A stretch of DNA of 64,000 bases from Anaerolineae bacterium (GTDB lineage: Bacteria > Chloroflexota > Anaerolineae > JAAYZQ01), in the NCBI GenBank assembly GCA_016929795.1, contig JAFGIA010000231.1:23434-87433 (forward strand), in the 5' to 3' direction. Shown one piece after another: positions 28,062 through 46,051 of the stretch (position 1 is the stretch's first letter; the number at the start of each line of letters is the position of its first letter). The notes under the pieces are model-generated. The model was not told the origin of the DNA. It did not search any database and saw only the letters and a list, made by a program, of their open reading frames with translations. The translations under genes were made by a program, and so were the position numbers.

Positions 28062-29060
28062 TCATAGTTCTATATCCAGAAACGTTCCATACTGAGCCAA
28101 AAAGCTCAGGCTGTCGGTAAAGATCAGGACGCCCATGAGGATGAGGAGCACGCCGCTGACGATGGAGACGAGGCCAAGATAGCGGTTGGCGCGGCGCAGC
28201 CAGCGCGACAGGGGGCCAAAGGCGAGGCCGACAACCAGGAAGGGGATGCCGAGGCCAAGGGAGTAGGCGGTCAGGAGCAGGATGCCCTGGCCGACGGTGT
28301 TGAGCTGGCTGGCGACGAACAGGATGCCCGCCAGGATCGGCCCGACGCACGGTGTCCAGCCGGCGGCGAATACAAAGCCAAAGAGGAGTGAGCGCCAGTA
28401 GCCACCAGCGCCCGATCTCGACTCGGCTCTGCCTGTGTGCTGGATCTCGATTTTTTTCTCAGAGTAAAAGAACTCGGCCTGATTCATAAAGTAGGCGGAC
28501 AGGGCGATGAGCAGGCTGGCGACGAGCTTGGGCACTGTCGCGTCATAGCTCGATAAAAAGTTGAGCAAGCCGGCGAGCATGGCCAGGCCGGCCTGTACCG
28601 GCGTGGCGAACCCGGCGCCAGCCAGAATTACGGCGGCCATGAGCACGCCCTCTTCGAGCCGGCCGAAGAGTGTGTTGCTGCTGAGCAGCAGGGTGGCGAG
28701 GCCCGTGAGGGTGGCGGCGGCGATCCAGCGGTCGCGGTTCCAGCCAATGGCCATCAAGCGCATGCCAAACACGACGAGCAGCGCGCCGCCAACTCGCTGC
28801 AGCAGGAGCGCATAGTCGCGCAGCAATCGCCCGATAAAGGTGGCCGAAGCGCCGAGCAGGATAAAAATGAGGGCAAATCCGACGACAAAAAGGAGGGCGT
28901 GCACGAAGGTGCGCCACGTGTTCCCCTCCTCCCCCGACGCCACGGCCGTGCCGCCGAGGTAGCCCATGTAGGCGGGCACCAGCGGCAGCACGCACGGCGA
29001 GACGAACGAAAGCAGCCCGGCCAGGAAGGCCAGCGGCAACGTAATGGTTTCGGTCTCCAT
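28062..29060 (-). CDS. ccdA: CcdA-type cytochrome c biogenesis thiol-reductant transporter
   Basis: 332-residue inner-membrane protein of the CcdA/DsbD-beta family, which carries electrons from cytoplasmic thioredoxin to extracytoplasmic thiols. The paired cysteines are in 'SFVSPCVLPLVPAYMGYLGG' (helix 1) and 'GWTPCVGPILAGIL' (later helix). It is longer than the ~240-residue minimal CcdA because of a hydrophilic insert around residues 170-205. ATG 29060 is used rather than TTG 29063. It follows ccmD by four bases, so it is part of the maturation operon and is the likely reductant source for apocytochrome thiols. Confidence 0.9.
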   Translation of the reverse strand: METETITLPLAFLAGLLSFVSPCVLPLVPAYMGYLGGTAVASGEEGNTWRTFVHALLFVVGFALIFILLGASATFIGRLLRDYALLLQRVGGALLVVFGMRLMAIGWNRDRWIAAATLTGLATLLLSSNTLFGRLEEGVLMAAVILAGAGFATPVQAGLAMLAGLLNFLSSYDATVPKLVASLLIALSAYFMNQAEFFYSEKKIEIQHTGRAESRSGAGGYWRSLLFGFVFAAGWTPCVGPILAGILFVASQLNTVGQGILLLTAYSLGLGIPFLVVGLAFGPLSRWLRRANRYLGLVSIVSGVLLILMGVLIFTDSLSFLAQYGTFLDIEL

Positions 29061-29064
29061 CAAA

Positions 29065-29220: not shown

Positions 29221-29916
29221 CTATCCAAGAATCCGCTCTTTGATCGCCGCGACGTCGTCGCGCAACTGCTCCAGGCGGATGCGATGCCACATCAGGGTGA
29301 CATACCAGATCGTAAAGGTGATCAGGCAGAAAAAGAACGCGAACATCATCTCCGGCGCCAGGCCGCCCGATTCCGTGCCGAACATGAGCGGGTGCTGGGT
29401 GCGCCACAGGCGGATGGCGATAAAGTTGATCGGCACCGAGATAAAGGCGACGATGCCATACACGGCGGCAAAGCGCGCGCGGCGTGCCGGGTCCTCGACG
29501 GTGCTGCGCAGCATCAGGTAGCCGAGGTAGACGAGGAACTGGATGAGCGAGATGGTCAGTCGCTCGTCCCACACCCACCACACGCCCCAGGCGGGTTTGG
29601 CCCAGATCGAGCCGCTGACGAGGACCCCGAGCATAAAGACGGTGCCGATCTCGGCCGACGCCAGTGCGAGGATGTCCCAGATGCGGCGCTGGGTGCGCAG
29701 GTAGCCGACGCCGCCGACAAAGGTGACGAAAAAGGCGAGAAAGCCGACCCATGCGGTGGCGATATGAAAGTAGATGATGCGCTGTGCATAGCGCCCTGTC
29801 TCGCTGCGCAGATTGGCATCTGGCGCGCCGAGGAGCGCCAGATAGAGGGCGACGAGCACCAGGAGGCCGCTCAGCACGGTGAGGGCCAGCAGAGGCATGT
29901 TTCGTTTCTGTGTCAT
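29221..29916 (-). CDS. ccmC: Heme exporter/handling protein CcmC
   Basis: 231 residues, six predicted transmembrane helices. Heme-handling signature WGVWWVWDERL (tryptophan-rich WWD motif, about residue 120) and flanking histidines in 'YFHIATAWVG' and 'MWHRIRLEQL' match CcmC, which passes heme to CcmE on the outer face of the membrane. ATG 29916 starts two bases after the ccmB stop. Part of the ccmABCD block. Confidence 0.95.
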   Translation of the reverse strand: MTQKRNMPLLALTVLSGLLVLVALYLALLGAPDANLRSETGRYAQRIIYFHIATAWVGFLAFFVTFVGGVGYLRTQRRIWDILALASAEIGTVFMLGVLVSGSIWAKPAWGVWWVWDERLTISLIQFLVYLGYLMLRSTVEDPARRARFAAVYGIVAFISVPINFIAIRLWRTQHPLMFGTESGGLAPEMMFAFFFCLITFTIWYVTLMWHRIRLEQLRDDVAAIKERILG

Positions 29917-29918
29917 CG

Positions 29919-30599
29919 TTATTCCTTCACCACGTAATCGAACACCATAAAGGCGACGGCGGGATAGATGACATCGAACGCGACGAGCAGCCGCAGCCAC
30001 ACCGCCAGGTCCGCCAGCGGCAGCCCGTCGAGGATGCCGGCGGTGGCCTTGACGGCAAAGATCAGCACCGGCGCGACGACAGGCAGGAGCAGGATCGGCA
30101 GCAGCACTTCTCTCGCGCGCGTCTGGGCCGTCATGGCCGACAGGATGGTGCCCACCCCGGCAAAGCCGAGCGTGCCGAGCACGACGACGATCAGCAGCAC
30201 CGGATTAAACAGGTTGACGCCGAGAAAAACGGTGAACACGAACAGCGTCACCGCCTCGACGATGAGCATAAAGAGCACCGTCGACGCCAGTTTGCCGAAA
30301 TAGATGGCCGTGTGGTCGACGGGCGCCAGCAGCAGGCCCTCCAGGCAGCCGCGGTCCTTCTCGAGCGCAAAGGCGCGGTTCAGGCCGAGCACGCCGGCAA
30401 AGGCGAACGCCACCCACAGAGTGCCGGGCGCTACCTCGCGCACGCGTTCGGCGCCGGTCACGCGGAACTCGAATGCAAAGACAAAGATGACGATGACGAG
30501 CACCGAAAAGACAAACATGGCGCTGAACATCTCTTTGGTGCGCAGCTCGGCGACGATGTCCTTCCAGATGATGGCGGACACTTTGCGTAGGTAGGTCAT
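29919..30599 (-). CDS. ccmB: CcmB, membrane subunit of the CcmABCD complex
   Basis: 226 residues with six hydrophobic segments; 'FAFEFRVTGAERVREVAPGTLWVAFAFAG' and 'EKDRGCLEGLLLAPVD' are typical CcmB stretches. Together with CcmA it forms the ABC part that drives release of heme-charged CcmE. ATG 30599 overlaps the ccmA stop (ATGA), indicating translational coupling. Length matches the family. Confidence 0.95.
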   Translation of the reverse strand: MTYLRKVSAIIWKDIVAELRTKEMFSAMFVFSVLVIVIFVFAFEFRVTGAERVREVAPGTLWVAFAFAGVLGLNRAFALEKDRGCLEGLLLAPVDHTAIYFGKLASTVLFMLIVEAVTLFVFTVFLGVNLFNPVLLIVVVLGTLGFAGVGTILSAMTAQTRAREVLLPILLLPVVAPVLIFAVKATAGILDGLPLADLAVWLRLLVAFDVIYPAVAFMVFDYVVKE

Positions 30600-31327
30600 G
30601 CGCCCCTCGTCACGTCGCGATAGATCTCTTTCATCGTTTCTAGGTTGACGCTGGCGCGGTCGCCCATCCACGCAATGCGCCCGCGGGCCAGGATGGCGGC
30701 ACGGTCACACACCTCGAGGCCCTGCTCCAGGCTGTGTGTTGTAAGAATGACGGTGCGGTTGGTGGTGGCAAGATCCTGGAGAAAGCCGCGCAGCATGTCA
30801 GCCGCCTGCAGATCGAGGCCGGTGTAGGGCTCGTCGAGGAGGAGGAGGCGCGGATCGTGCAGGATGGCACGCGCGATCGACAGTCGCTGCACCATGCCGC
30901 GCGAGAAGGTGCGCACGGGGTCGCGGCGGCGAGCGGTGAGGCCGACCTGGTCGAGCACGGCCGCGACACGCGCCTCGTCGATCCGTCTGTTCTCCGGCAC
31001 GTCGTACATGCGCGCAAAGAAGCGCAGATTCTCCTCAGCGGTCAGGTCGCCGTACAGGAGCGGGTCGTGGGAGATAAGGCCGATATCGCGCCGCAGCGAT
31101 GTGGCGCCCTTGCCAATTTCCTTGCCCCACAGCCGCACGCTGCCCCCAGTCGGGCGGGTCAGCGTGGCGACGATGCGCATCAGCGTCGTCTTGCCGGCGC
31201 CGTTCGGGCCAAAAAGCGCCAGGAATTCACCTTCCGCCAGCGCCAGGTCGACGCCGCGCAGCGCGGCGTGGTGGCCAAACGCCTTGGTCAGCTTTTTGGC
31301 TTCGACGGCAGGTGGGGCAGCCGTCAT
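30596..31327 (-). CDS. ccmA: CcmA, ATP-binding subunit of the CcmABCD complex
   Basis: 243 residues. Walker A GPNGAGKTTL, Q-loop 'IGLISHDPLLYGDLTAEEN', signature 'FSRGMVQRLSIARAIL' (FSRGM in place of LSGGQ, as often in CcmA), Walker B 'LLLLDEPYTGLD', switch His 'TTHSLEQG'. ATG overlaps the upstream gene's stop (ATGA) and its own stop overlaps ccmB, so the genes are tightly coupled. Confidence 0.95.
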   Translation of the reverse strand: MTAAPPAVEAKKLTKAFGHHAALRGVDLALAEGEFLALFGPNGAGKTTLMRIVATLTRPTGGSVRLWGKEIGKGATSLRRDIGLISHDPLLYGDLTAEENLRFFARMYDVPENRRIDEARVAAVLDQVGLTARRRDPVRTFSRGMVQRLSIARAILHDPRLLLLDEPYTGLDLQAADMLRGFLQDLATTNRTVILTTHSLEQGLEVCDRAAILARGRIAWMGDRASVNLETMKEIYRDVTRGA

Positions 31328-32571
31328 GCGCGCGGCCCCCGGCCGTGGGGCTGCGACTTGAGTGCGGTGTAGAGCCTGTCACGCTCGCGCGCATATTCGT
31401 CGTCGACGATGGTGCCCGCGTCGCGGGCGTCTTCCAGGCTTGCCAGATCCTGAAGGAGGGCGCGGGTGCGTGGGTTGGCACTCAGGTCCGTGGCAGGTGC
31501 GCGGGCGGGCACCCGGCGTCGCGCCACGCTGGGATAGATAAAGGCAGCGGCCACTGCCGCCAGCGACAGGGCAAAGCCGATCCAGCGCAGCGCCTCCTGG
31601 GTGCTATCTGACGGGCCACCGCTGGAAGCGGGCGCAGCCGGCTCGCCCCCAGATGTAGCCGGTGCAGCCTCGGCGCCGGCAACGGGGATCAGGTCCATTG
31701 AGAGTGCCGTACCGGCGGGCAGGCCGCGGATCTCGTACATGTCGTACTGGCGTCCCTGGATCGATTGCAGCCCCAACGCTTCCAGTTGCTCGCTCTCGAG
31801 CCCAAGCCCGGGCTGGACGACGAGGACGTTGAGGGTATCTACCGGGTAGTCGAACGCGCGATCGATCTGGACTCGGTCGCCGGCAACCATCAGGTGGTAA
31901 GAAAAGAAAACCATGCTGGTAGATTGCCCCGGTGCCACCGGGTCGGTGTCCAGCAGGCCGCCTTCCACCTGCACGAAACGATCCTCCGCCATGCCTTCGT
32001 CAAAGGAAATGCCGACGGCGCCTTCCGGAAGCGGGATCGAGAGGGTGAAGCGGGTACCGCCCTCACCAGGCTGACCGACAAATGCGCGGTCGCCGGTGTT
32101 GGACAGCAGGTGGATTTCCGTCACGCGCAGCGCCTGGCCAAACGACTCGGCGATCATGTGTACCGAGCTGATGCGGATCGCCGCGTCAGCGTCAGTGGTT
32201 TCAAAGACGTTTGCCACAGCCTGGAGTGTCGTCTCGCCCTCGGCAAAGAGATAGGGCTCCTGGGCGGTGTAGGTCACATCCTGGTACGTGGCCTCGATCC
32301 AGTATTCGAGCGTGAGGTCGGTGTCGAGGCCCTCAAAACGGAAGGCGCCACCGGGGCCGGTCGTTGTCTCTTGAGTGTCGATCTCGGCGCCACCCTGAAA
32401 GACGTGGAGTGTGACAGAGATGCCCGCGTCGATGGCAGGGCCGCCCTGGGTGCCGTTCACCACCTGCCCTTCGATCGCACCAGAGCCCTGCGCAGTGACA
32501 TGAGGGGCGACAAGCAAGAGTGCGAGCAGGGCCAGTGCGGCGATGACTGCCCTGTACGATAAAGAGCACAT
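31324..32571 (-). CDS. Secreted/anchored protein with carboxypeptidase-regulatory-like domain and CcmI-like tail
   Basis: 415 residues starting 'MCSLSYRAVIAALALLALLL' (signal peptide, cleavage near 'VTAQGSG'). A beta-sandwich of the carboxypeptidase-regulatory kind follows ('GAIEGQVVNGT', 'FRFEGLDTDLTLEYWIEATY'), then a second extracytoplasmic region. One transmembrane helix lies near residues 335-355, and a cytoplasmic tail carries 'LLQDLASLEDARDAGTIVDDEYARERDRLYTAL' features that resemble the N-terminal helical unit of CcmI. ATG overlaps the zinc-ribbon gene's stop by one base (TGATG); its stop overlaps ccmA. Probably an apocytochrome or complex-assembly factor (inference). Confidence 0.7.
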   Translation of the reverse strand: MCSLSYRAVIAALALLALLLVAPHVTAQGSGAIEGQVVNGTQGGPAIDAGISVTLHVFQGGAEIDTQETTTGPGGAFRFEGLDTDLTLEYWIEATYQDVTYTAQEPYLFAEGETTLQAVANVFETTDADAAIRISSVHMIAESFGQALRVTEIHLLSNTGDRAFVGQPGEGGTRFTLSIPLPEGAVGISFDEGMAEDRFVQVEGGLLDTDPVAPGQSTSMVFFSYHLMVAGDRVQIDRAFDYPVDTLNVLVVQPGLGLESEQLEALGLQSIQGRQYDMYEIRGLPAGTALSMDLIPVAGAEAAPATSGGEPAAPASSGGPSDSTQEALRWIGFALSLAAVAAAFIYPSVARRRVPARAPATDLSANPRTRALLQDLASLEDARDAGTIVDDEYARERDRLYTALKSQPHGRGPRA

Positions 32572-32933
32572 CAGCTTTCCTCCCCGGCGGCCACTCGATG
32601 GCCGCATTTGCTGCAAAAGACGTCGCCAGGGCGCAGCGCCGTGCCACACTGGGGGCAGATGGTCGCTGCCGGCGACGGCGTAGCAGCCGGGCTGCCGGCA
32701 GGCAGGTCCGCACCGCATTTGACGCAAAAACGGTCTCCTACCCTGTAGGCACGGCCGCAGGTGGGACATTCGAGATCGCCCCCGCGTGCCGCGCGCAGCC
32801 GGCGCACCGCTCTTTCGATGTCGCGATCTGTCACTCCCGCCGTCGCTGCGATGGATGCCTGTCGCGAGAGGAGCGGATAGACGATGACAGCAGCAGCGAC
32901 GACGAACAGGAGTGCTAACACAACGATCGCCAT
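32571..32933 (-). CDS. Membrane-anchored double zinc-ribbon protein in ccm operon
   Basis: 120 residues: an N-terminal transmembrane helix ('MAIVVLALLFVVAAAVIVY'), a short charged linker containing 'DIERAVRRLRAARG', then two zinc ribbons (CPTCGRAY...FCVKCGADL and CPQCGTAL...FCSKCGHRV). Topology puts the ribbons in the cytoplasm if the linker is inside. It sits between ccmF (4 bases) and the CcmI-like gene (1-base overlap), so it is part of the pathway by context. Exact role unknown. Confidence 0.75.
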   Translation of the reverse strand: MAIVVLALLFVVAAAVIVYPLLSRQASIAATAGVTDRDIERAVRRLRAARGGDLECPTCGRAYRVGDRFCVKCGADLPAGSPAATPSPAATICPQCGTALRPGDVFCSKCGHRVAAGEES

Positions 32934-32937
32934 GGTC

Positions 32938-34929
32938 CTAACTCTCCTCTTGCTGCTGTCCCGGGTATCCCGTAGATCGGGCACTCGAGGTGGGCCAGGC
33001 AGCGATCAAGGTACCCACGAGGAGCACCACGCCGCCGATCCAGAGCCATACGACGAGGGGGGTGATCAGCACCTGGAAAGCGGCCAGGCCGTCTGGCTCC
33101 AAGCTGGAGAGCACCACGTACAGGTCCTCCTTCAGGTTGGAGCGGAGGGCGACCTCGCTGACGGCGCCCTGCACATTGCTGTGCAGGTTGCGCTCGGGGC
33201 GCATGGTGGCGACCAGGCGGTCGTCGCGGTAGACGTCAACCACTGCCTGGTTCAGCACCTTGTTCCCCTCTTCCTCAATGCGCCGGTAGGTATAGTCCTC
33301 GTAGGCAATCGTGTAGCCACCCACTTCTACTTCCTCACCCTGCGCCAGGGCGACCTGGACCTCGGTCTGGTACGCCTGCGAGCCGGTGATGCCGGCGACG
33401 ATGAGCAGGATAGAAAAGTGGATGATCTGCCCACCGTAGCGGCGGCGGTTCTTGCCGATGGCGCGGGCAAGGGCAGTGAAAGGGTTCTCGCCGGTGGTGC
33501 GCATACGCGCCGCGGCGCCCTGGACGAACTGCAACACGATGGTGGCAGCGACAAAAGCGACGACGGCAAAAGAGATCACGGCCCACATCTCGCTGACGCC
33601 GAGGAGGAGCAGGACGACAGCCGTGACGGCGGCGACGACCGCCTGCACCCACATGTTGCGCAGCAGGCGCTCGGCTTCGATGTGCCGCCAGTCGACCAGC
33701 GGGCAGACGCCGATGAGCACGGTGAGAATCAAGCCCAGCGGGCCCATGAAGCGGTTATAGTTCTCGGGTCCCAGGCTGGTGGGCACATCGCGCACCGCCT
33801 CTGTGAAGGTGGGCCACAACGTGCCGAGGAGCACGGCTGCTGCCGAGCCGAGAAAGAGCAAGTTGGTGAGGAGAAAGACAAACTCGCGCGACAGCAGATC
33901 GCCGAGCTGGCCTTCGCCCTCCATCTCTCGCCTGCGGGCAAGCATCAGCCCGACGGTGGCGACAAGGACGACGAGCATGTAGCCCAGGTAGTAGTAGCCG
34001 ATGGGCGACTGGGCAAAGGCGTGCACCGACTGGATCAGGCCCGAACGGGTGACAAAGGTGGCAAACACGGTCAGCACAAAGGTGACCATGGCGAGCAAGA
34101 TGTTCCATCCACGGAACATGTCGCGCCGCTGTTGGATGATTGCCGAGTGAACAAATGCCGTGCTGACGAGCCACGGGATGAGCGACGAGTTCTCCACAGG
34201 GTCCCATCCCCAGTAGCCGCCCCAGCCCAGCTCCAGGTAGGCCCACCAGGCTCCGACGAGGATGCCGATGCCGAGCGACGCCCACGCCGCCAGTGTCCAG
34301 CGGCGCGAGCCGGACAGCCATGTGGCGTCGAGGCGGCCGGTGACCAGGGCGGCAAAGGCATAGGCAAACGGAATGGTCCACAGCGCATAGGCGGCAAAGA
34401 TGATGGGCGGGTGGATGATCATCCAAAAGTTCTGGAGCAGCGGGTTCAGACTGATGCCCTCGGCCGGGGTCGTGGGCATCAGCTCGAACGGGTTGGTGAG
34501 CGTCACGAGGAGCAACGCGAAAAAGGACTGCGTGATGGCCAGGATCACCATGGCGTAGGGCCGCAGCTCTCGATCCCAGGTGGGCGGCCGGAGCAGGAGC
34601 AGGGCGCTAAAGAGGGTGAGCATCCACAGCCACAGCAGTTGCGAGCCCTCCAGGCCTGCCCAGAAGGCAGACAGGACATAGGGGGCAGCCAGGTAGGTGC
34701 TGACGTGCTCATAGACGTAGCGCACCTGAAACTCGTGTGTGAAAAGCAGCGCTAACAAAATAGCCGACGCCAGCGTAGACAGGCCGGCTGTGACGAACAG
34801 TGCGTTGCGGGCGCTGGCGACCATCTCGGGCCGGCGGCGAGCTGCCCCGACGAGGGCGGCAAACGCCGACCAGAGCCCCACCGCCATGGTCAGGACCAAC
34901 GTCCCATATCCGATATCAGCAAGGATCAA
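32938..34929 (-). CDS. ccmF: Cytochrome c heme lyase subunit CcmF
   Basis: 663 residues, the usual CcmF length, with about 14-15 membrane segments. The WWD heme-handling motif is in 'WGGYWGWDPVENSSLIPWL', and the family stretches 'NPLLQNFWMIIHPPIIF', 'FVTRSGLIQSVHAF' and a periplasmic C-terminal loop are present. CcmF takes heme from CcmE and attaches it to apocytochrome CxxCH sites, normally with CcmH. The start is TTG 34929 with GGAGG eight bases upstream, three bases after ccmE. Confidence 0.96.
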   Translation of the reverse strand: MILADIGYGTLVLTMAVGLWSAFAALVGAARRRPEMVASARNALFVTAGLSTLASAILLALLFTHEFQVRYVYEHVSTYLAAPYVLSAFWAGLEGSQLLWLWMLTLFSALLLLRPPTWDRELRPYAMVILAITQSFFALLLVTLTNPFELMPTTPAEGISLNPLLQNFWMIIHPPIIFAAYALWTIPFAYAFAALVTGRLDATWLSGSRRWTLAAWASLGIGILVGAWWAYLELGWGGYWGWDPVENSSLIPWLVSTAFVHSAIIQQRRDMFRGWNILLAMVTFVLTVFATFVTRSGLIQSVHAFAQSPIGYYYLGYMLVVLVATVGLMLARRREMEGEGQLGDLLSREFVFLLTNLLFLGSAAAVLLGTLWPTFTEAVRDVPTSLGPENYNRFMGPLGLILTVLIGVCPLVDWRHIEAERLLRNMWVQAVVAAVTAVVLLLLGVSEMWAVISFAVVAFVAATIVLQFVQGAAARMRTTGENPFTALARAIGKNRRRYGGQIIHFSILLIVAGITGSQAYQTEVQVALAQGEEVEVGGYTIAYEDYTYRRIEEEGNKVLNQAVVDVYRDDRLVATMRPERNLHSNVQGAVSEVALRSNLKEDLYVVLSSLEPDGLAAFQVLITPLVVWLWIGGVVLLVGTLIAAWPTSSARSTGYPGQQQEES

Positions 34930-34932
34930 TGC

Positions 34933-35322
34933 TTATTCCTCCGCCTCGTACTTGGACGGGCACTTCATCAACAGCTCGTCCGCTTCGAATACATGTACGT
35001 CGGGGTCGTAGCGACCGATGGCCACGGCCTCTACGGCGTCGACCAACATGTCCGGCTGTGGCCCGTGGTACGAGATGGCGAGCTGGCCCGTGTCATCCTC
35101 GATGGCGAATGTCAGGTGCATGTCGCGCGTGCTCCATTGCACCGAGTCGGGCACGATGGCCCCTGCCACGCGCGAGTCGCGGGCCTGATCGGGGCCGAGG
35201 GCCTTGATCTGGGCGATGGTTAAGTAATCGCTCGTGGAGCCGGAAAAGCTGGTGGCGATCAACACGGCAATGACGGCGACGACCACGGCTCCGCCGACGA
35301 AAAACTTGGCTGTCGAAGACAC
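34933..35322 (-). CDS. ccmE: Heme chaperone CcmE, cysteine (CxxxY) variant
   Basis: 129 residues: one N-terminal transmembrane helix ('FFVGGAVVVAVIAVLI') and the OB-like CcmE domain ('VAGAIVPDSVQW', 'LTFAIEDDTGQLAISYHGPQPDMLVDAVEAVAIGRYD' features). The site that in classical CcmE holds the covalent-heme His (HxxxY) reads 'LMKCPSKYEAEE', that is CxxxY. Natural CxxxY CcmE proteins are known from sulfate reducers and archaea, in Ccm systems lacking CcmG and CcmH. Start GTG 35322, AGGAGG close upstream. Stop lies three bases before ccmF. Confidence 0.93.
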   Translation of the reverse strand: MSSTAKFFVGGAVVVAVIAVLIATSFSGSTSDYLTIAQIKALGPDQARDSRVAGAIVPDSVQWSTRDMHLTFAIEDDTGQLAISYHGPQPDMLVDAVEAVAIGRYDPDVHVFEADELLMKCPSKYEAEE

Positions 35323-35341
35323 ATTTCCTCCTGATATCCTG

Positions 35342-36256
35342 TTACTCGCGACGCACCGCCGCGCCACAACGGTGGCAAAAGTGGGAATCGTCGCGGATTT
35401 CGGCGCCACACTTGTGGCAGTAGTAAGCTTGGCGGTCGCGCTTGCGGCGCGCCGGCTCTACCGGGGCGGGTGTCTTGCGCGATGCAGGAGACTGCGTGCG
35501 CTGGCCCAGCCAGTAAGCGGCCACCCCCACGCCGAGGAGCGCGACAAAGGCAACGACAAAGATGGCAACAGTGGAGCTGCTCTCGGGTACAGCGGCAGGC
35601 TGCGTGGGAGCCGGTGCGGGCGTTGGCTGCTGGAAGAAAGCGACCGTGAGACGATCGTCTTCTTTGGTGTAGTGGAAAGTCCATCTCTGCCTCTCACCCT
35701 GCTCCAGGCTGCCAGCCTGAGAGACGTGGTAGCGCAGACCGTCACCCGCAACAGAGGACGAGTTGGCAGCAGGTTCTAGCTGAAAATCTTGAGCAAGCGG
35801 TGGCTCCTGGACCTCGATCAGCAGGGCGCGGAGCGCATAGTCGGCCGTGTAGGTAAAGGAGTACTCGCGTGCACCGGCGTCCGAAACCGGCAGATCGTCA
35901 TAGTATTCGAGCTGAAAGCTGGGAGTTGGTAGATCGAAAGCGACGATCAAAAGATCGCCTTCGATGCGGGTGGTGTGCTGCAGATTAAACCGGCCCCCAT
36001 CCTCGCCAATGTACGCCACCGCATGGGGTGAGCCAGCTTTTGCCGGGATGGCGAGTTCGACGGGCAATGGGTAGGTGACAGCCGCGTCGAACTGTCCACG
36101 ATAGATCACCAGGGCGCCCGGCCGGTCGTACTCGGGCCAGATCGAGATTTCGAGTGTTTCCAGGATCGGGGAATCTTGCGCGCCTGCCACAGGCAAGACC
36201 AGAGATCCCAGGCACAAAAAAAGCGCCAGCCATAATCGCTTTATTGCCACAACCAC
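35342..36256 (-). CDS. Exported protein with C-terminal cytoplasmic double zinc ribbon, ccm operon leader
   Basis: 304 residues. Signal peptide 'LWLALFLCLGSLVLPVAGAQ', a ~190-residue extracytoplasmic beta-rich domain ('LEISIWPEYDRPGALVIYRGQ', 'YSFTYTADYALRALLIEVQ'), a Pro-rich linker, one transmembrane helix near 225-245, and a basic cytoplasmic tail ending in a zinc ribbon (YCHKCGAEIRDDSHFCHRCGAAV). GTG start at 36256 with AGGAGG about 12 bases upstream. First gene before ccmE; it shares the zinc-ribbon theme with the 32571-32933 protein. Not a recognised family; an assembly or sensing role is inferred from position. Confidence 0.7.
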   Translation of the reverse strand: MVVAIKRLWLALFLCLGSLVLPVAGAQDSPILETLEISIWPEYDRPGALVIYRGQFDAAVTYPLPVELAIPAKAGSPHAVAYIGEDGGRFNLQHTTRIEGDLLIVAFDLPTPSFQLEYYDDLPVSDAGAREYSFTYTADYALRALLIEVQEPPLAQDFQLEPAANSSSVAGDGLRYHVSQAGSLEQGERQRWTFHYTKEDDRLTVAFFQQPTPAPAPTQPAAVPESSSTVAIFVVAFVALLGVGVAAYWLGQRTQSPASRKTPAPVEPARRKRDRQAYYCHKCGAEIRDDSHFCHRCGAAVRRE

Positions 36257-36355: not shown

Positions 36356-38194
36356 CTACTGACCTGTGATCGACTCGATGATCGTCTGGAAATCCTCAAA
36401 ACTGACCGAGCCCTGCTCGCCCTGGCCATTGTTAAAGAGAAAGACCGGGCTTCCGGGCACACCATAAAGCGCGGCGACGACGTTGCCCGACCGGGCTTCC
36501 AGCCGCGCTTCGTCCGAGGTCAGGCACGACTCGAACTGAGCTTGGTCGAGGCCGAGTGACCCGGCATATTCAACGAGGGTACTGTCGACGTCCGTCGCGG
36601 CTGTCCACGCTTCCTGATTTTCAAAGAGGAACGTGTGCATCGCCAGAAAGCTGTCCTGCCTGCCAGCACACAACGCGGCCGTAGTTGCCTCGGCAGCAGG
36701 GCTGTCCGCTTCTCCGAACAGAGGGTGTACCACGTAGACGAGCTGGCCGGGGTCAATGTACGTCTCTTTTAGCTGTGGCCACACCTTGAGCACATGGTTG
36801 GCCGACTCGGGGTCGGCATAGTTCAGGAAGGCGATGGTGATGGCGTTGGCGGTGCCGCCCATTGGGTTGCCCTGCACACGCCAGTCGCCCTGCGTCTGGG
36901 GCAGGATGTTTGGCGGGGGGCCGCCGTCGGCAACGTACTCGATCACCTGGCCGAGCTGCTCGATTGGCAGACCACCGCGAATGGGCAGGTCTCCGACAAA
37001 GAAGTAGGGCGTGGCGTTCACCCCCATCTCCTGGCCGGCGAGCATGTCGCTCTGCACAAAGACCTTCGCCTCGTCCGAGTCGATGCACGCTGTCAGAGCG
37101 GTTGGGTTTAGGCCAAGGTCTGATGCGTACTGGGCGAACAGGGTGATCGGATCGTCGGAGCCGTTCCACTGGTCTTTGTTGGCAAAGAGCGAACCGTGCA
37201 TTTCCCAGTAGCCACCCTGTTGACCCGCGCAATAGGCAGCCCTGGATGCTGCGGGTGCGTTGGGGTGGAGCGACTCGAGCGGGAACTGGCGGTAGACAAA
37301 ACGCACCATGCCCGTGTCGACGTAGCGCTCGATCATCTCGGGAATCACGATCTGCTCTACCTGGCCACACGCAGGGCACCCATAGTCAGAGAACTCGGTG
37401 ACGACCACAGGGGCATCGGCATCGCCCATGCTGCGGAAACTATCGGCTGCCACTTCCATGATCGGTGCCTGGCCGCCGGCAAGATAGTAGTCGATTTGCT
37501 GCTGGAAGGCGCTGAAAGGCTGTGCGCCTGACAGTAGTGCTCCATTGATGAGAAATCCGGGCGTGCCGGTAATGCCCGCCGCCTGGCCTGCCGCCAGATC
37601 GGCCCGCACCTCGTCGGCGAACTCGCCATCTGTGAGGCACGCCTCGAACTGGCCCTCGTCGAGGCCCAGCTCGCCGGCCATGTCGACGAATACCTGCACG
37701 GCGCCTTCGTTGCTGGCCCACCTGTCCTGTGCTTCAAAGAGCACGTCGTGCATCTCCCAGAAAGCGCCCTGCACGCCGGCGCATTCCGTTGCCTCTGCCG
37801 CCTTTTGCGCCTGCGCGTGAAAGCTCAGTGGAAAGTGCCGGAATTCGTAGCGAACCTGCCCCGTCTCGACATACTGACTCAGGATCTGCGGAAACGTCTC
37901 ACGGACGTATTTAGCGCAGTACGGTCATTGAAAGTCAGAGTATTCGACGATGGTCACGGGCGCGGCTGGCTCGCCCAGGACATGATAGTCGTCAGGATCG
38001 ACGGCTTGGCCTGGCTCGGGCGCTGGCCCTTCCGGTGCCAAAGTGGCGGGTGCCGGCGTATCGGCGTCCGCTGGTGCCTGGGTTGGCGTGCCGATCTCTG
38101 CCGGGGTGGCCGAATCGGTCGGCATCGGGCCACAAGCCCCTACCAGCAGTACGACCAGGACCAGAACAATCAGACTGCTATGTCTCCAGCTCAT
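36356..38194 (-). CDS. Three-domain DsbA-like lipoprotein with in-frame UGA, probable selenoprotein
   Basis: Read through the TGA at 37925-37927 this is 612 residues. The lipoprotein signal peptide ends in lipobox 'LVGAC', followed by a Pro/Thr/Ala linker. Domain 1 (about 68-245) reads 'VTIVEYSDFQ' then TGA (codon 90) then 'PYCAKYV', so the TGA replaces the first Cys of the DsbA CPYC site. Domain 2 (about 255-425) has the normal 'YSD'-like 'FSDYGCPACGQ' (C273, C276). Domain 3 (about 450-612) has 'NYADPES' and no CxxC. ATG 38194 with GGGGAGA upstream. The frame is open on both sides and a SECIS-like hairpin follows. Alternative: a stop mutation or sequence error giving two fragments. Neighbours are copA and the ccm operon. 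Confidence 0.8.
37886..37919 (-). promoter_or_regulatory. Candidate bacterial SECIS hairpin
   Basis: On the minus strand, just 3' of the TGA: outer stem CTGCG/CGCAG (37915-37919 with 37886-37890), an asymmetric internal loop, inner stem ACGTC/GACGT (37904-37908 with 37894-37898), and apical loop CGTGA. The loop begins 21 bases after the TGA and has G at position 2, in keeping with the bacterial SECIS pattern as I know it. Confidence 0.6.
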
Positions 38195-38208
38195 TCTCTC
38201 CCCTTATC

Positions 38209-38305
38209 GATTTACGATTTACGATTTACGATTTACGATTGCCGGTTTGACTGCGATTGTGCTTCTGGAGCCCAATCGTAAATCGTCAATCATCAATCGT
38301 AAATC
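38209..38305. repeat. GATTTAC tandem/inverted repeat at the copA 3' end
   Basis: Left arm 38209-38241 is four and a half copies of the 7-mer GATTTAC. The right arm 38273-38305 is its inverted, slightly diverged copy (three mismatches over 33 bases), separated by 31 bases. The right arm supplies the last codons and stop of copA. It could form a long hairpin between copA and the DsbA-like gene. Confidence 0.75.
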
Positions 38306-40754
38306 CTTTGAGTCGCAGCGAGTTGCTGACGACGAATATGCTGCTAAAGGCCATGGCCCCGGCAGCGATGATCGGGTGCAGGCGCAGGCCAAAGGCCGGG
38401 TAAAAGGCGCCGGCCGCGAGCGGGATCAAGATGACGTTGTAGAAAAACGCCCAGAACAGGTTCTGCTTGATCGTGCGCATTGTGACCCGGCTCAAGCCGA
38501 TGGCACGCGCCACCCCTGACAGGTCGCCGCTCATCAGCGTCACATCGGCCGTAGCGATGGCGACGTCGGTGCCAGTACCGATGGCAATGCCGACGTCTGC
38601 CTGGGCCAGCGCCGGGGCGTCGTTGATGCCGTCGCCTACCATGCCTACGACCGTGCGGTGCTCGGAGCCGCGGCCGTTTTCCTGCAGCGCGCGCACCCTG
38701 TCCGCCTTTTCACCCGGCAGTACCTCGGCCATGACACGGCTGACGCCGACCTGGCGGCCAATCTCCTCGGCCGTGCGCTCGTTGTCGCCGGTGATCATTA
38801 CCACCTCGAGACCGAGGGCCTGGAGGCGGCGGATCGCTTCTGCCGAGCCTTCCTTGACCGTGTCGGCGACGGCCACCACGCCGGCAGGTTGGCCATCGAC
38901 GGCGACGAGCATCGCTGTTTTCGCCTCGATCTCTAGCGCCGTGGCAGGGTCCGCCAGACCGTCAAGCGCCACACCGTGGCTCTGCAGCAGCCGGCGGGAG
39001 CCGACGAGTACCTGCCGTCCCTCGACCGTGGCGACGATGCCCTGCCCGGTGACCGCTTCGAACCGCTCCGGCTCGCTCAGCACGAGCCCTTTGTCGATAG
39101 CGGCACGGACGATGGCCTCACCCAGCGGATGCTCCGAGCCCCGCTCGGCCGAAGCGGCCAGGTGGAGCAAGGACTCGGCTCCCAACGAGCTCGCCCCGTC
39201 CGTCACCAGGCCTGCTGGCACGACGTCGGTGACCGAAGGCGCGCCGTGAGTGATGGTCCCTGTCTTGTCGAGCACGATGACATCGAGCTCATGGGCGCGC
39301 TCCAGAGCAGCACTGTTCTTGAACAGGATGCCGTGCTCGGCCCCCTTCCCGGTGCCCACCATGATCGCCGTTGGTGTCGCCAGGCCCAGCGCACAGGGAC
39401 AGGCGATGACCAGAACGGCGACCATAAAGATCATGGCCTGGGTAAAGCCTACGCCACCAACGATCAGCCACCCAAGAAAGGTAAGCAGCGCCGCGCCGAT
39501 GACGGCTGGCACAAAGATGCTCGATACCCTGTCGGCGAGACGCTGAATGGGCGCCTTGGAGCCCTGGGCTTCTTCTACCAGGCGGATGATCTGTGCCAGG
39601 GCTGTCTGGGCGCCGACGCGCGTCGCCTCAAAGCGCAGCAGGCCCTGCTTGTTGATGGTGCCACCCACCACCTCATTGCCCGGCCTCTTGTCGACAGGCA
39701 GGCTCTCGCCGGTGAGCATCGACTCGTCGACGGCCGAGTGCCCCTCGACCACGACGCCGTCTACCGGGATCCGCTCGCCGGGGCGTACCAGGACGATGTC
39801 GCCGAGCACTACCGCTTCGATCGGGACGTCGATCTCCTGGCCGTCGCGCACGATGCGCGCGGTTTTGGGGCGCAGCCCCATCAGCTTTTTGATCGCCTCT
39901 GACGTGCGCCCCTTTGCCCGTGCCTCGAGCATCTTGCCCAGCTTGATCAGAGTAATGATCGCAGCCGACGTCTCAAAGTAGACGTGCCCCCCGATCCCCG
40001 GAAATAGCAACACTGCTAAACTGTAAAAGTACGCCGCCGACGAGCCCATGGCGACCAACACGTCCATGTTGGCCGACCCGGCGCGCAGGCTTTTCCACCC
40101 CCCTACGTAATAGTCCCAGCCGACATAAAATTGCACTGGCGTGGCCAGGACCAGAAAGAGCCAGTTCACCCACGGCGCGTGGGCCCACATGCCGAGCAGC
40201 CCCACGTCGCGCCCCATGCTGAGCAGGAAGAGCGGCAGTGCAAAGGCCACGCCCACCCAGAACTTGCGCGTCTGGTCGCGGATCTCGGCCTCGCGCGCGG
40301 CCCGCTCCACATCCTCCGCCACCTCGCCCTCACCCGGCACAATCACATCGTAGCCGAGATCACGGATGGTGTGCTGGATGGCCGCCAGGCTGGTCACACC
40401 CGGCAGGTACTGCACACTCGCGTGCTCACTGGCCAGGTTGACGTTGACCTCGACCACCCCTTCCATCCGGCCCAGGCCGCGCTCGATGGCCATGGCACAG
40501 TTGGCGCACGTCATACCTGTGATCGGCAGTTCAGCTTTGGCCGTCGGAACATCATACCCGATGTCGCGGATCAACGCAAAAAAGTCCTTCTCCTTGACGA
40601 GCGAAGGATCATAGACGACCGATGCCTTTTCCGTCGCCAGGTTGACCGCTGCCGCCTCGACGCCCTCCAGGCGTCGCAGGTTACGCTCGATGGTGAGCGA
40701 GCAGTTGGCGCACGTCATGCCGGTGACGGGCAGGTTGATCTGCTTCTTTTCCAT
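38286..40754 (-). CDS. copA: Copper-exporting P-type ATPase CopA
   Basis: 822-residue P1B-ATPase that pumps Cu(I) out of the cytoplasm. Two N-terminal heavy-metal-binding domains ([12 protein letters not shown] and [12 protein letters not shown]), eight membrane helices with ion-binding CPC in '[13 protein letters not shown]', phosphorylation site DKTGT, '[10 protein letters not shown]' (HP motif), hinge '[10 protein letters not shown]'. ATG 40754 preferred to TTG 40757. Follows copZ by six bases. The C-terminal 'GFTIDD' and stop are encoded by the GATTTAC repeat. Copper export to the periplasm may also feed cytochrome oxidase assembly (inference). Confidence 0.96.
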
Positions 40755-40760
40755 CAAGCT

Positions 40761-40967
40761 CTACCCAGCCGGCGGATAGCCGATTTCGGTCAGCGCTTCC
40801 TTGAGTGCCGTGAGCACCGCGTCATCCTCAACCCGGACGACGACCTTTTTGGCGCTGACGTCGCCACTGACAAACTCGGCGCCGTCGACGGTCGCCGTTT
40901 CGCGCTTGATACTCATGACGCAGTGATTGCAGCTAATGTTCGGAATCTCTAGCGTAACGGTTTGCAT
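40761..40967 (-). CDS. copZ: Copper chaperone CopZ-like, single HMA domain
   Basis: 68 residues, one heavy-metal-associated domain with CNHC in 'IPNISCNHCVMSIKRETATV' and the typical beta-alpha-beta length. Delivers Cu(I) to CopA. ATG 40967 with a strong site (AAGGGAGGAAAC); behind a near-consensus promoter at 41039-41067. The usual 'GMTC' glycine-methionine pair is replaced by 'NISC', a mild deviation. Confidence 0.92.
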   Translation of the reverse strand: MQTVTLEIPNISCNHCVMSIKRETATVDGAEFVSGDVSAKKVVVRVEDDAVLTALKEALTEIGYPPAG

Positions 40968-41038
40968 GTTTCCTCCCTTGACACAGTTCTTGTCCAACCC
41001 TTGGGCGGAACCAGAGCCGCCTCCTCTAACAGCCCGCT

Positions 41039-44085: not shown

Positions 44086-44931
44086 TTATGTTTCGATCAC
44101 CACCAGGCGGTCTAGTCCTGCGTAATCCTGCTCGACGTGCACGCGTGCCTGGGGAAACTGCTCATGCGCTGCCGCCCTCGCCGCCTCGCCCTGCTCCGCG
44201 CCGATCTCCAACATCACCGTGCCGCCGGGCTCCAGCCGCGGACCGGCACTCGCCAGCAGGCCGCGCACCAGGTCGAGCCCGTCCTCCCCACCGTCCAGCG
44301 CCTGCCGTGGCTCGTGGTCGCGGATCTCGGGCATCAGCTCCGCCCACTCTGCCGTCGTGACGTACGGAAGGTTCGCGACGATCAAGTGCACGCGTTCGGG
44401 CAGAGGCTCGAGCAGGTAGCCCTGCAGGCAGTGCACCCGGATGGTGACGCCATGGCGCCGTGCGTTCTCGCCGGTCATTTCCAGCGCTCCAGCCGAGGCG
44501 TCGACGGCGTACACCGTCGACGCCGGAAGCTGCACTGCCAGCGTGACGGCAATCGCCCCACTGCCGGCGCCCACGTCGGCAATGCGCGGCGCCGGCACCT
44601 GCCGTGCGAATGCCACTGCACGCTCCACCAGCAGTTCTGTCTCAGGGCGGGGAATGAGCACGCGCTGGTCGACGGCGAAATCGAGGCCGTAAAACTCCCG
44701 GTGGCCCACGATGTAGGCCAGCGGCTCGCGGCTGGCGCGCCGTTCCACCAGCGCCCGGTAGTGCGTCAGATCTTTGGGCGTCAGGCGCCGTTCGGGATGG
44801 GCGAGCACGAGGGCACGCGTGGCACCAAGCACGTGTGCCAACAACAATTCGGCGTCGAGCCGTGGCGACTCGACGCCTTCACTTTTCAATTGGAGGCGGG
44901 CTTGCTCCACTGCTGTCCCAATCGGGATCAC
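44086..44931 (-). CDS. prmC: Release-factor glutamine methyltransferase PrmC (HemK)
   Basis: 281 residues. Methylates the Gln of the GGQ motif of RF1/RF2. N-terminal helical domain (1-~85), then SAM motif I 'IADVGAGSGAIAVTLAVQL'. The substrate-Gln motif reads NLPY in 'IVANLPYVTTAEW' instead of the common NPPY; such variants occur. GTG at 44931 is the likely start. Lies directly downstream of prfA on the same strand, the standard pairing of enzyme and substrate. Confidence 0.94.
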   Translation of the reverse strand: MIPIGTAVEQARLQLKSEGVESPRLDAELLLAHVLGATRALVLAHPERRLTPKDLTHYRALVERRASREPLAYIVGHREFYGLDFAVDQRVLIPRPETELLVERAVAFARQVPAPRIADVGAGSGAIAVTLAVQLPASTVYAVDASAGALEMTGENARRHGVTIRVHCLQGYLLEPLPERVHLIVANLPYVTTAEWAELMPEIRDHEPRQALDGGEDGLDLVRGLLASAGPRLEPGGTVMLEIGAEQGEAARAAAHEQFPQARVHVEQDYAGLDRLVVIET

Positions 44932-44980: not shown

Positions 44981-46051
44981 CTACTCCCCCAAGCTCTGCA
45001 GCCGCTCCGCCTCGTCCGTCGTCGCCAGCTCGTCAATGATCTCATCCAGGTCGCCATTCACGATCGCTTCCAGCCGGTACAGCGTCAGGTTGATGCGGTG
45101 GTCGGTAAAGCGGTTCTGCGGATAGTTGTACGTCCGGATCTTTTCACTCCGCTCGCCCGAGCCAACCTGCAGCCGCCGTGTCTCGCCACGCTCCTCGAGC
45201 TGCCGCTCGCGCTCGGCCTCGTACAGGCGCGAGCGGAGGATGGACATGGCCCGCTCCCGGTTCTGTGTCTGGCTGCGCTCGCTCTCGCACGACACGACCA
45301 GGCCCGTCGGCTTGTGCACAATGCGCACCGCGGTGGCATTCTTTTGCATGTGCTGCCCGCCGGGGCCCGACGAGATATAGACGTCCACGTCGAGGTCCGA
45401 TGGGTCGATCTCGATCTCCACATCATCGATCTGCGGCAACACCGCGACGGTGGCCGTGGACGTGTGAATGCGGCCCTGCGATTCTGTAGCCGGCACGCGC
45501 TGCACACGGTGCACACCGCTCTCGTACTTCAGGCGCGAGTAGGCCCCCTTGCCTGCGATCTCGAATATGATCTCTTTGAGCCCACCGACGCCGGTGTCGT
45601 GGCTGCTCAAAATGCCGGTCTTCCAACGGTGCGCTTCGGCGTAGCGTGTGTACATGCGGTATAGGTCGGCGGCGAACAGGCCGGCCTCGTCGCCGCCTGT
45701 CCCTGCCCGGATCTCCATGATTACATTCTTGGCATCGGCGGGGTCGCGCGGCAGGAGCAGCTTGCGCATCTGCGCATACAGCCCTTCCATCTCGGCTTCG
45801 ATGCGCTCCACCTCGGCGAGGCCCATCTCGTACATCTCGTCTTCCTCGCCCATCTCCATCAGGGCGCGCGTGTCGGCGAGCTCTTTTTCCAATTTTCGGT
45901 AGTGGCGGTACGTTTGTACCAACTCCTCGATCTCGGACTGCTCCTGCGCGTGCTCTGCCATGAGCATGTGGTCGGCGACCGTCTCGGGGTCCGCCATGAG
46001 CTGGTTCAGCTCTTCGTATCGGTCTTCAACCAGTTGTACCTTGTCCAGCAC
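44981..46051 (-). CDS. prfA: Peptide chain release factor 1
   Basis: 356 residues, typical for RF1, which ends translation at UAA and UAG. Stop-codon-reading tripeptide PAT in 'HRVQRVPATESQGRIHTS', catalytic GGQ in 'SSGPGGQHMQKNATAV'. GTG at 46051 with GAGGAG upstream; promoter at 46085-46113. A separate RF2 (reading UGA) is not in the window, which matters because UGA may encode selenocysteine in the DsbA-like gene. Confidence 0.97.
   Translation of the reverse strand: MLDKVQLVEDRYEELNQLMADPETVADHMLMAEHAQEQSEIEELVQTYRHYRKLEKELADTRALMEMGEEDEMYEMGLAEVERIEAEMEGLYAQMRKLLLPRDPADAKNVIMEIRAGTGGDEAGLFAADLYRMYTRYAEAHRWKTGILSSHDTGVGGLKEIIFEIAGKGAYSRLKYESGVHRVQRVPATESQGRIHTSTATVAVLPQIDDVEIEIDPSDLDVDVYISSGPGGQHMQKNATAVRIVHKPTGLVVSCESERSQTQNRERAMSILRSRLYEAERERQLEERGETRRLQVGSGERSEKIRTYNYPQNRFTDHRINLTLYRLEAIVNGDLDEIIDELATTDEAERLQSLGE

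Follow-up and report, generated by a model that had tools for sequence, protein, structure and literature searches.

An in-frame UGA at the redox site of a three-domain DsbA-like lipoprotein gene is probably read as selenocysteine

Introduction

Is a gene that seems to be broken by a stop codon a relic, a pair of genes, or a single gene whose stop codon is read as an amino acid? The question is raised by a locus in a 64,000-nucleotide stretch of DNA from an Anaerolineae bacterium (the whole of which we call the window), where a minus-strand frame runs from an ATG at 38194 to a TAG at 36356 and its sole internal stop is a TGA at 37927-37925. An earlier note on this DNA had described one open frame with that single TGA, which frame reading confirms, and had taken it for a selenoprotein and not for two genes or a pseudogene. 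The analysis reported here supports that interpretation: the TGA is kept in two orthologues, and a survey of related genomes returned 61 comparable sites with TGA and none with TAA or TAG. On the sequence evidence assembled below, we put the probability that the UGA is read as selenocysteine (Sec), in a redox protein of the NCBIfam family NF041057, at roughly 0.93.

Results

Read through its one UGA, the gene (36356..38194, minus strand) would encode a three-domain DsbA-like lipoprotein of 612 residues, a description that draws on the frame itself, on Pfam and NCBIfam matches and on the orthologues L086 (59% identity) and L087 (55%). The TGA is codon 90 and lies in the context EYSDFQ-TGA-PYCAKYV, at a DsbA-type CPYC site, where the proposed Sec90 (37925..37927, minus strand) would replace the first Cys and give UPYC. 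The second redox residue of the site, Cys93 (37916..37918, minus strand), is invariant in a nine-row alignment. When the window was scanned mechanically, 34 in-frame TGA codons lay beside motifs of the Cys, Ser or Thr type, and of these candidates we judged, by eye, the TGA at codon 90 to be the only convincing one.

Of 8000 candidates scored in a protein search, 2196 proved to be relatives, and 120 of these were listed. The earlier note had expected Cys at this position in relatives, and all 63 of the listed relatives that cover the site have it (as aligned to the query). In the orthologues L086 and L087 the codon is a TGA as well, the sequence around it is similar, and domain 1 is undamaged before and after it. 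The other 57 listed proteins, the window's own included, begin after the UGA; their starts lie between residues 96 and 182, and 32 are at 105 or 148. They are at least 50% identical to the query over the aligned part, and their first letter is M, L or V, as gene callers do where a frame opens after a stop. Both of the closest listed relatives, P0002 (84% identity) and P0003 (83%), are of this kind. DNA evidence covers two of the 56 downstream-starting listed relatives that remain when the window's own protein is set aside: L086 is 95% identical to P0049 and L087 96% identical to P0068, which places the TGA in DNA near-identical to two downstream-starting proteins. On a tree of the 120 listed rows, built by a quick method from the part after residue 151, the 57 downstream-starting proteins and 19 Cys proteins form one clade of 76, and the 44 proteins outside it all have Cys; the label, downstream start or Cys, changes six times on this tree, against about 40 times in shuffles. 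One downstream-starting row, P0080 (residue 182), sits inside a Cys group and may be a simple fragment.

Three loci have two Sec-type UGAs in one frame, each in its own UPxC site: L087 (1735 and 2287), L091 (reverse complement, 1771 and 2974) and L159 (1510 and 2731). The second TGA of L087 stands for the first Cys of domain 2, and in L091 and L159 the two U-P-x-C sites lie about 400 residues apart. In L105/L156 the first site has Cys and a later one has UGA.

L086 and L087 come from the two nearest genomes of the comparison set, G061 and G026, its only members of their order, and we surveyed 396 genomes of the class of G061 with the DNA pattern DF[Q/E]-TGA-P-[mostly Y or F]-C. The pattern occurs at 61 sites in 52 genomes and never in the backwards control; its TAA/TAG version occurs nowhere in the 396 genomes, and once in the backwards control. 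When 59 distinct TGA-bearing frames were cut from the loci, the window excluded, all 59 matched both NF041057 and Pfam Thioredoxin_4 (E up to 0.001). With a single strict pattern finding it in 52 of 396 genomes, UGA at the active site of this family appears to be common in the class. Seven of the 59 frames also match a cyclophilin-type peptidyl-prolyl isomerase family at the same threshold, hinting either at fusions of isomerase and DsbA-like selenoprotein or at read-in from a neighbouring gene.

The accessible part of PMC13188914 describes the bSECIS as lying 16-37 nt from the UGA and as having an apical loop of 3-9 nt with a G among its first two nucleotides. A SECIS-like hairpin that agrees with this description follows the window UGA (ACGUC-CGUGA-GACGU, 37894..37908, minus strand); its loop has 5 nt, starts 21 nt after the UGA and has G at position 2, and the element is identical in L086 and L087. 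The earlier note had claimed such a hairpin, and the element at 37908-37894 is right in kind, but it is weak when taken alone: in five folding windows the RNA after the UGA has an unremarkable energy (z between -0.97 and +0.97), and synonymous recoding of the context yields an equally long stem in 26% of trials (p 0.26). An Rfam scan of the window gave no match at the gathering score. By itself the window hairpin is not significant, and its weight rests on the comparison with relatives.

For that comparison a rule-based test was adopted, because folding energy, ordinary in the window, is only modestly shifted in the set as a whole (mean z -0.86 in 59 UGA contexts against -0.22 in 126 Cys contexts). 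The test requires an uninterrupted stem of 5 bp or more, in which G-U pairs count, with a loop of 3-7 nt that has G in its first two positions and starts 14-34 nt after the codon; it was applied to 59 distinct UGA contexts, the window included, and 126 distinct Cys contexts, other phyla included, after duplicates, contexts cut by the end of a locus and contexts with N had been dropped. A stem of this kind follows 42 of the 59 UGA contexts and is absent from 17, against 19 of the 126 Cys contexts with one; the contexts are mutually related and the lineages are unmatched, and the nominal Fisher value of 9e-14 therefore makes the difference look stronger than it is. Measured against synonymous recoding, only nine of the 59 UGA contexts and three of the 126 Cys contexts reach p 0.05. 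Covariation was assessed in a subgroup of 26 UGA contexts picked by peptide motif, the window not among them, in which 159 of the 182 cells of a stem at 22-38 nt are paired, where 2000 column shuffles average 134.6 +/- 2.3 and never exceed 143; slid registers give 41-98 paired cells, and the only two Cys counterparts of this subgroup have 4 of 14 cells paired. The window, L086 and L087 have the same five hairpin codons (TAC GTC CGT GAG ACG), whereas in the three pairwise comparisons over the gene different codons encode a shared residue in 181/349, 150/325 and 189/358 cases (46-53%).

Machinery for Sec insertion is present in the nearest relatives. In both G061 and G026 selA and selD are present, as is a tRNA-Sec whose anticodon is tca; G026 also has a complete selB, of which G061 shows a 124-bit fragment where a contig ends. 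Among the 28 genomes that contain the strongest relatives, matches over the cut-off were obtained for selA in 25, selB in 22, selD in 25 and tRNA-Sec in 25, and the tRNA-Sec scores reach at least 63 bits in 23 of the 28 and exceed the gathering score in 25. No tRNA gene was found within the 64-kb window. In the class sample 318 of 396 genomes, about 80%, have selA (E up to 1e-60); a tally by eye puts it in 45 of the 52 genomes that show the TGA pattern and in 273 of the 344 that do not, a co-occurrence that is weak evidence because selA is common in the class anyway. Under stricter filters tRNA-Sec is found in 42 of the 52 TGA-pattern genomes, and 50 of the 52 have selA or tRNA-Sec. Neither was detected in the other two, G188 and G400, perhaps because these genomes are incomplete. 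As a separate observation, a single in-frame TGA occurs in 27 of the 28 selD matches that exceed the cut-off (for example in G103, G044, G141 and G061), and G061 has one selD with such a codon and one without.

The predicted product begins with a signal peptide and a lipobox, LVGAC (38132..38194, minus strand), recognised by eye; its Cys21 is invariant in the nine alignment rows, and NF041057 is a lipoprotein family. Pfam Thioredoxin_4 matches the protein in three stretches, and DsbA-like domains 1 (37487..37993), 2 (36926..37447) and 3 (36362..36877), all on the minus strand, are likewise supported by the structure model and by an NF041057 scan of each domain, with fold matches in addition for the first two and the nine-row alignment for the third. 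Domain 1 has the Sec site. Domain 2 has a CPAC site (37367..37378, minus strand), whose first Cys is also the one replaced by TGA in L087; the sister-domain motif FSDYGCPACG of the earlier note is indeed there, with Cys273 and Cys276. Domain 3, absent from that note's description, has no CxxC.

The structure model was computed from the nine-row alignment with Cys placed at position 90. The predicted fold has a mean pLDDT of 86.5, and residue 90 immediately precedes a helix at 91-99; in thioredoxin folds the attacking residue usually sits just before such a helix. Among the best structural matches are DsbA, BdbD, TsdA and ScsC proteins (3f4r, 3eu4, 4pwp, 7unn, 7rgv), which share the fold of the single domains but differ from the window protein in having Cys and not Sec, in being single-domain structures and in their identity to it of 20-31%.

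The family itself is known. The window protein scores 404.3 bits against NF041057, the Rcas_1661 family of thioredoxin-like (seleno)lipoproteins, in three stretches and with a cut-off of 190; L086 scores 420 and L087 396. Scanned by domain, domain 1 gives 193.2 bits, domain 2 gives 120.4 and domain 3 gives 102.0, and only domain 1 exceeds the cut-off by itself, narrowly. The table in the accessible part of PMC13188914 lists NF041057 as a DsbG-like protein with UxxC and one Sec, and from this listing and the NF041057 match we conclude that the window protein joins an already known selenoprotein family. The earlier note had not placed the protein in this catalogued family. In the part of PMC1794560 that we could consult, a 2006 survey, DsbA-like and DsbG-like selenoproteins are reported, and the Chloroflexi have three selenoproteins in three families. 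The selenoproteins of these two sources, as far as the accessible portions describe them, share a thioredoxin-fold thiol oxidoreductase with Sec, as UxxC in the 2026 table (PMC13188914), and members of NF041057 resemble the window protein in being thioredoxin/DsbA-like lipoproteins with UxxC or CxxC at the same place. The NF041057 model, however, is a single domain of 247 positions, whereas the window protein has three copies per chain with Sec only in the first, and L087, L091 and L159 have two Sec-type UGAs per frame against the one Sec of the consulted part of the PMC13188914 table. Those portions of PMC1794560 and PMC13188914 do not mention three tandem domains or two-Sec chains of this family, and no literature was found under the family name Rcas_1661. 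The less ordinary features of the locus are its three tandem domains, its relatives with two Sec-type codons, and its setting among genes for copper export and cytochrome c maturation.

That setting is shared with the nearest relatives. All on the minus strand, the order in the window is a small HMA metal-binding protein (40761..40997), a CopA-like copper-exporting P-type ATPase identified by Pfam and NCBIfam (38286..40757), the UGA gene, a protein with a C-terminal zinc ribbon (35342..36256), CcmE-like (34933..35409), a CcmF/NrfE-like heme lyase (32938..34929), a 481-aa frame without a Pfam or NCBIfam match (31324..32769), a CcmA-like ABC ATPase (30596..31327), CcmB-like (29919..30671), CcmC-like (29221..30000) and a CcdA/DsbD-like membrane protein (28062..29063), so that the UGA gene sits inside a ccm gene cluster. 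L182, from G061, has counterparts of all of these in the same order. L183, from G026, keeps the order from HMA to CcmB except for the zinc-ribbon protein, and in a stretch that reaches 2.1 kb past CcmB no counterparts of CcmC, CcdA or the zinc-ribbon protein were found. Neither the window protein, which matches DsbA/Thioredoxin_4 instead, nor any scanned frame of the cluster has a Pfam or NCBIfam match to CcmG or CcmH.

Some details of this cluster may be recorded in their own right. The counterparts of the 481-aa frame between CcmF and CcmA are 52 and 45% identical to it. The small HMA protein that adjoins CopA has the motif CNHC, and CopA, in its N-terminal part, exceeds the cut-off of NF041115, a UxxU metal-binding (seleno)protein; in the window both the HMA protein and this part of CopA have Cys throughout.

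Discussion

We favour the reading of codon 90 as Sec because its TGA is conserved in both orthologues and its class-wide counterparts are never TAA or TAG, because SECIS-like hairpins favour UGA contexts and covary in a subgroup of 26 sequences, and because selA, selD and tRNA-Sec in G061 and G026, the NF041057 match, the shared neighbourhood and the confident fold all agree with it. A gene seemingly broken by a stop codon would thus almost certainly make an intact selenoprotein that handles disulfides outside the cytoplasm. The product is predicted to be a membrane-anchored extracytoplasmic lipoprotein of three tandem DsbA-fold domains. SelB and tRNA-Sec would decode the UGA at codon 90 as Sec, directed by the hairpin just 3' of it, and Sec90 and Cys93 would form the UPYC redox site of domain 1; domain 2 would keep an ordinary CPAC site, and domain 3 would lack a redox pair. 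Such a protein may act as a thiol-disulfide (selenol) oxidoreductase that serves the adjacent cytochrome c maturation and copper-export genes, with electrons perhaps supplied by the CcdA/DsbD-like protein of the same cluster.

What it would serve is less clear. In well-studied bacteria the cysteines of apocytochrome c that bind heme are reduced by CcmG and CcmH, and these draw their electrons from DsbD or CcdA. Given this route and the lack of a CcmG or CcmH match in the scanned frames of the cluster, one might suppose, as a rather unlikely proposal, that in this lineage the selenoprotein replaces CcmG/CcmH: the CcdA-like protein would hand electrons to one or two Sec-bearing tandem domains, and these would reduce apocytochrome c, or would load or protect copper sites. 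Judged by titles and the openings of abstracts, no report linking selenoproteins to cytochrome c maturation was found. Copper handling or general disulfide work is as likely as the CcmG/CcmH role. To a broader alternative, that the protein is a selenoprotein whose business is general disulfide isomerisation, peroxide defence or copper handling and not cytochrome c maturation, we would give nearly even odds: the family is related to DsbA and DsbG, the fold matches include ScsC, 'suppressor of copper sensitivity' proteins, CopA and the HMA protein lie directly upstream, and the cluster of L183 is shared without counterparts of CcmC and CcdA. Against it stands the order of ccmE, ccmF, ccmA and ccmB, which is the same in both relatives, together with ccmC and ccdA in L182.

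Because gene calling cuts the protein after the UGA, the redox centre is missing from database entries, both from the window's own and from those of 56 of the 119 other listed relatives. The covarying SECIS-like hairpins of the class could help to sharpen the model of the bacterial SECIS. Proteins with tandem domains or two UGAs, together with the position next to genes for cytochrome c maturation and copper, suggest a testable role of selenium in the assembly of heme or copper proteins, and chains with two Sec residues in separate domains would, if real, amount to an intramolecular selenium relay.

Explanations without Sec are far less probable. One could suppose a pseudogene or two genes, produced by a nonsense mutation within a Cys gene whose downstream part now makes a shorter protein; the window's own database protein, P0001 (462 aa), begins at residue 151, downstream of the UGA, as gene callers start after the TGA, and start codons are indeed available there in the frame. 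We regard this as very improbable, since the TGA has been kept at 55-59% identity with domain 1 intact on both sides of it, the class-wide count of TGA is unaccompanied by either of the other stops, and the five hairpin codons have stayed constant where about half of the codons for shared residues differ.

Less probable still is an opal suppressor tRNA, or an altered code, that puts Cys or some other residue at the UGA. UGA-to-Cys recoding does occur, and the relatives have Cys at the site. Yet TGA ends 12 of 39 mechanically chosen long frames in the window (a few of the 39 are spurious), and because the frames it ends include those of CopA, DprA, Fmt and CcdA, the genetic code has not changed as a whole; further, the nearest relatives have selA, selD and a tRNA-Sec (tca), and SECIS-like hairpins are far more frequent after UGA than after Cys codons. 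PMC5424206, which deals with Cys coding in Chloroflexi, does not mention UGA and gives no support to such recoding. A single-base sequencing or assembly error in a Cys codon is the least probable account of all, as the assemblies of L086 and L087 carry the same TGA and the closest listed relatives, P0002 and P0003, also start downstream.

Two further observations concern other parts of the window. The gap between CopA and the UGA gene (38195-38285, minus strand) contains several repeats of the ATCGTAA/TTACGAT type, in both orientations, just 5' of the start codon, and a release factor of the RF-1 type is encoded at 44981-46051 (minus strand), with PrmC beside it at 44086-44931.
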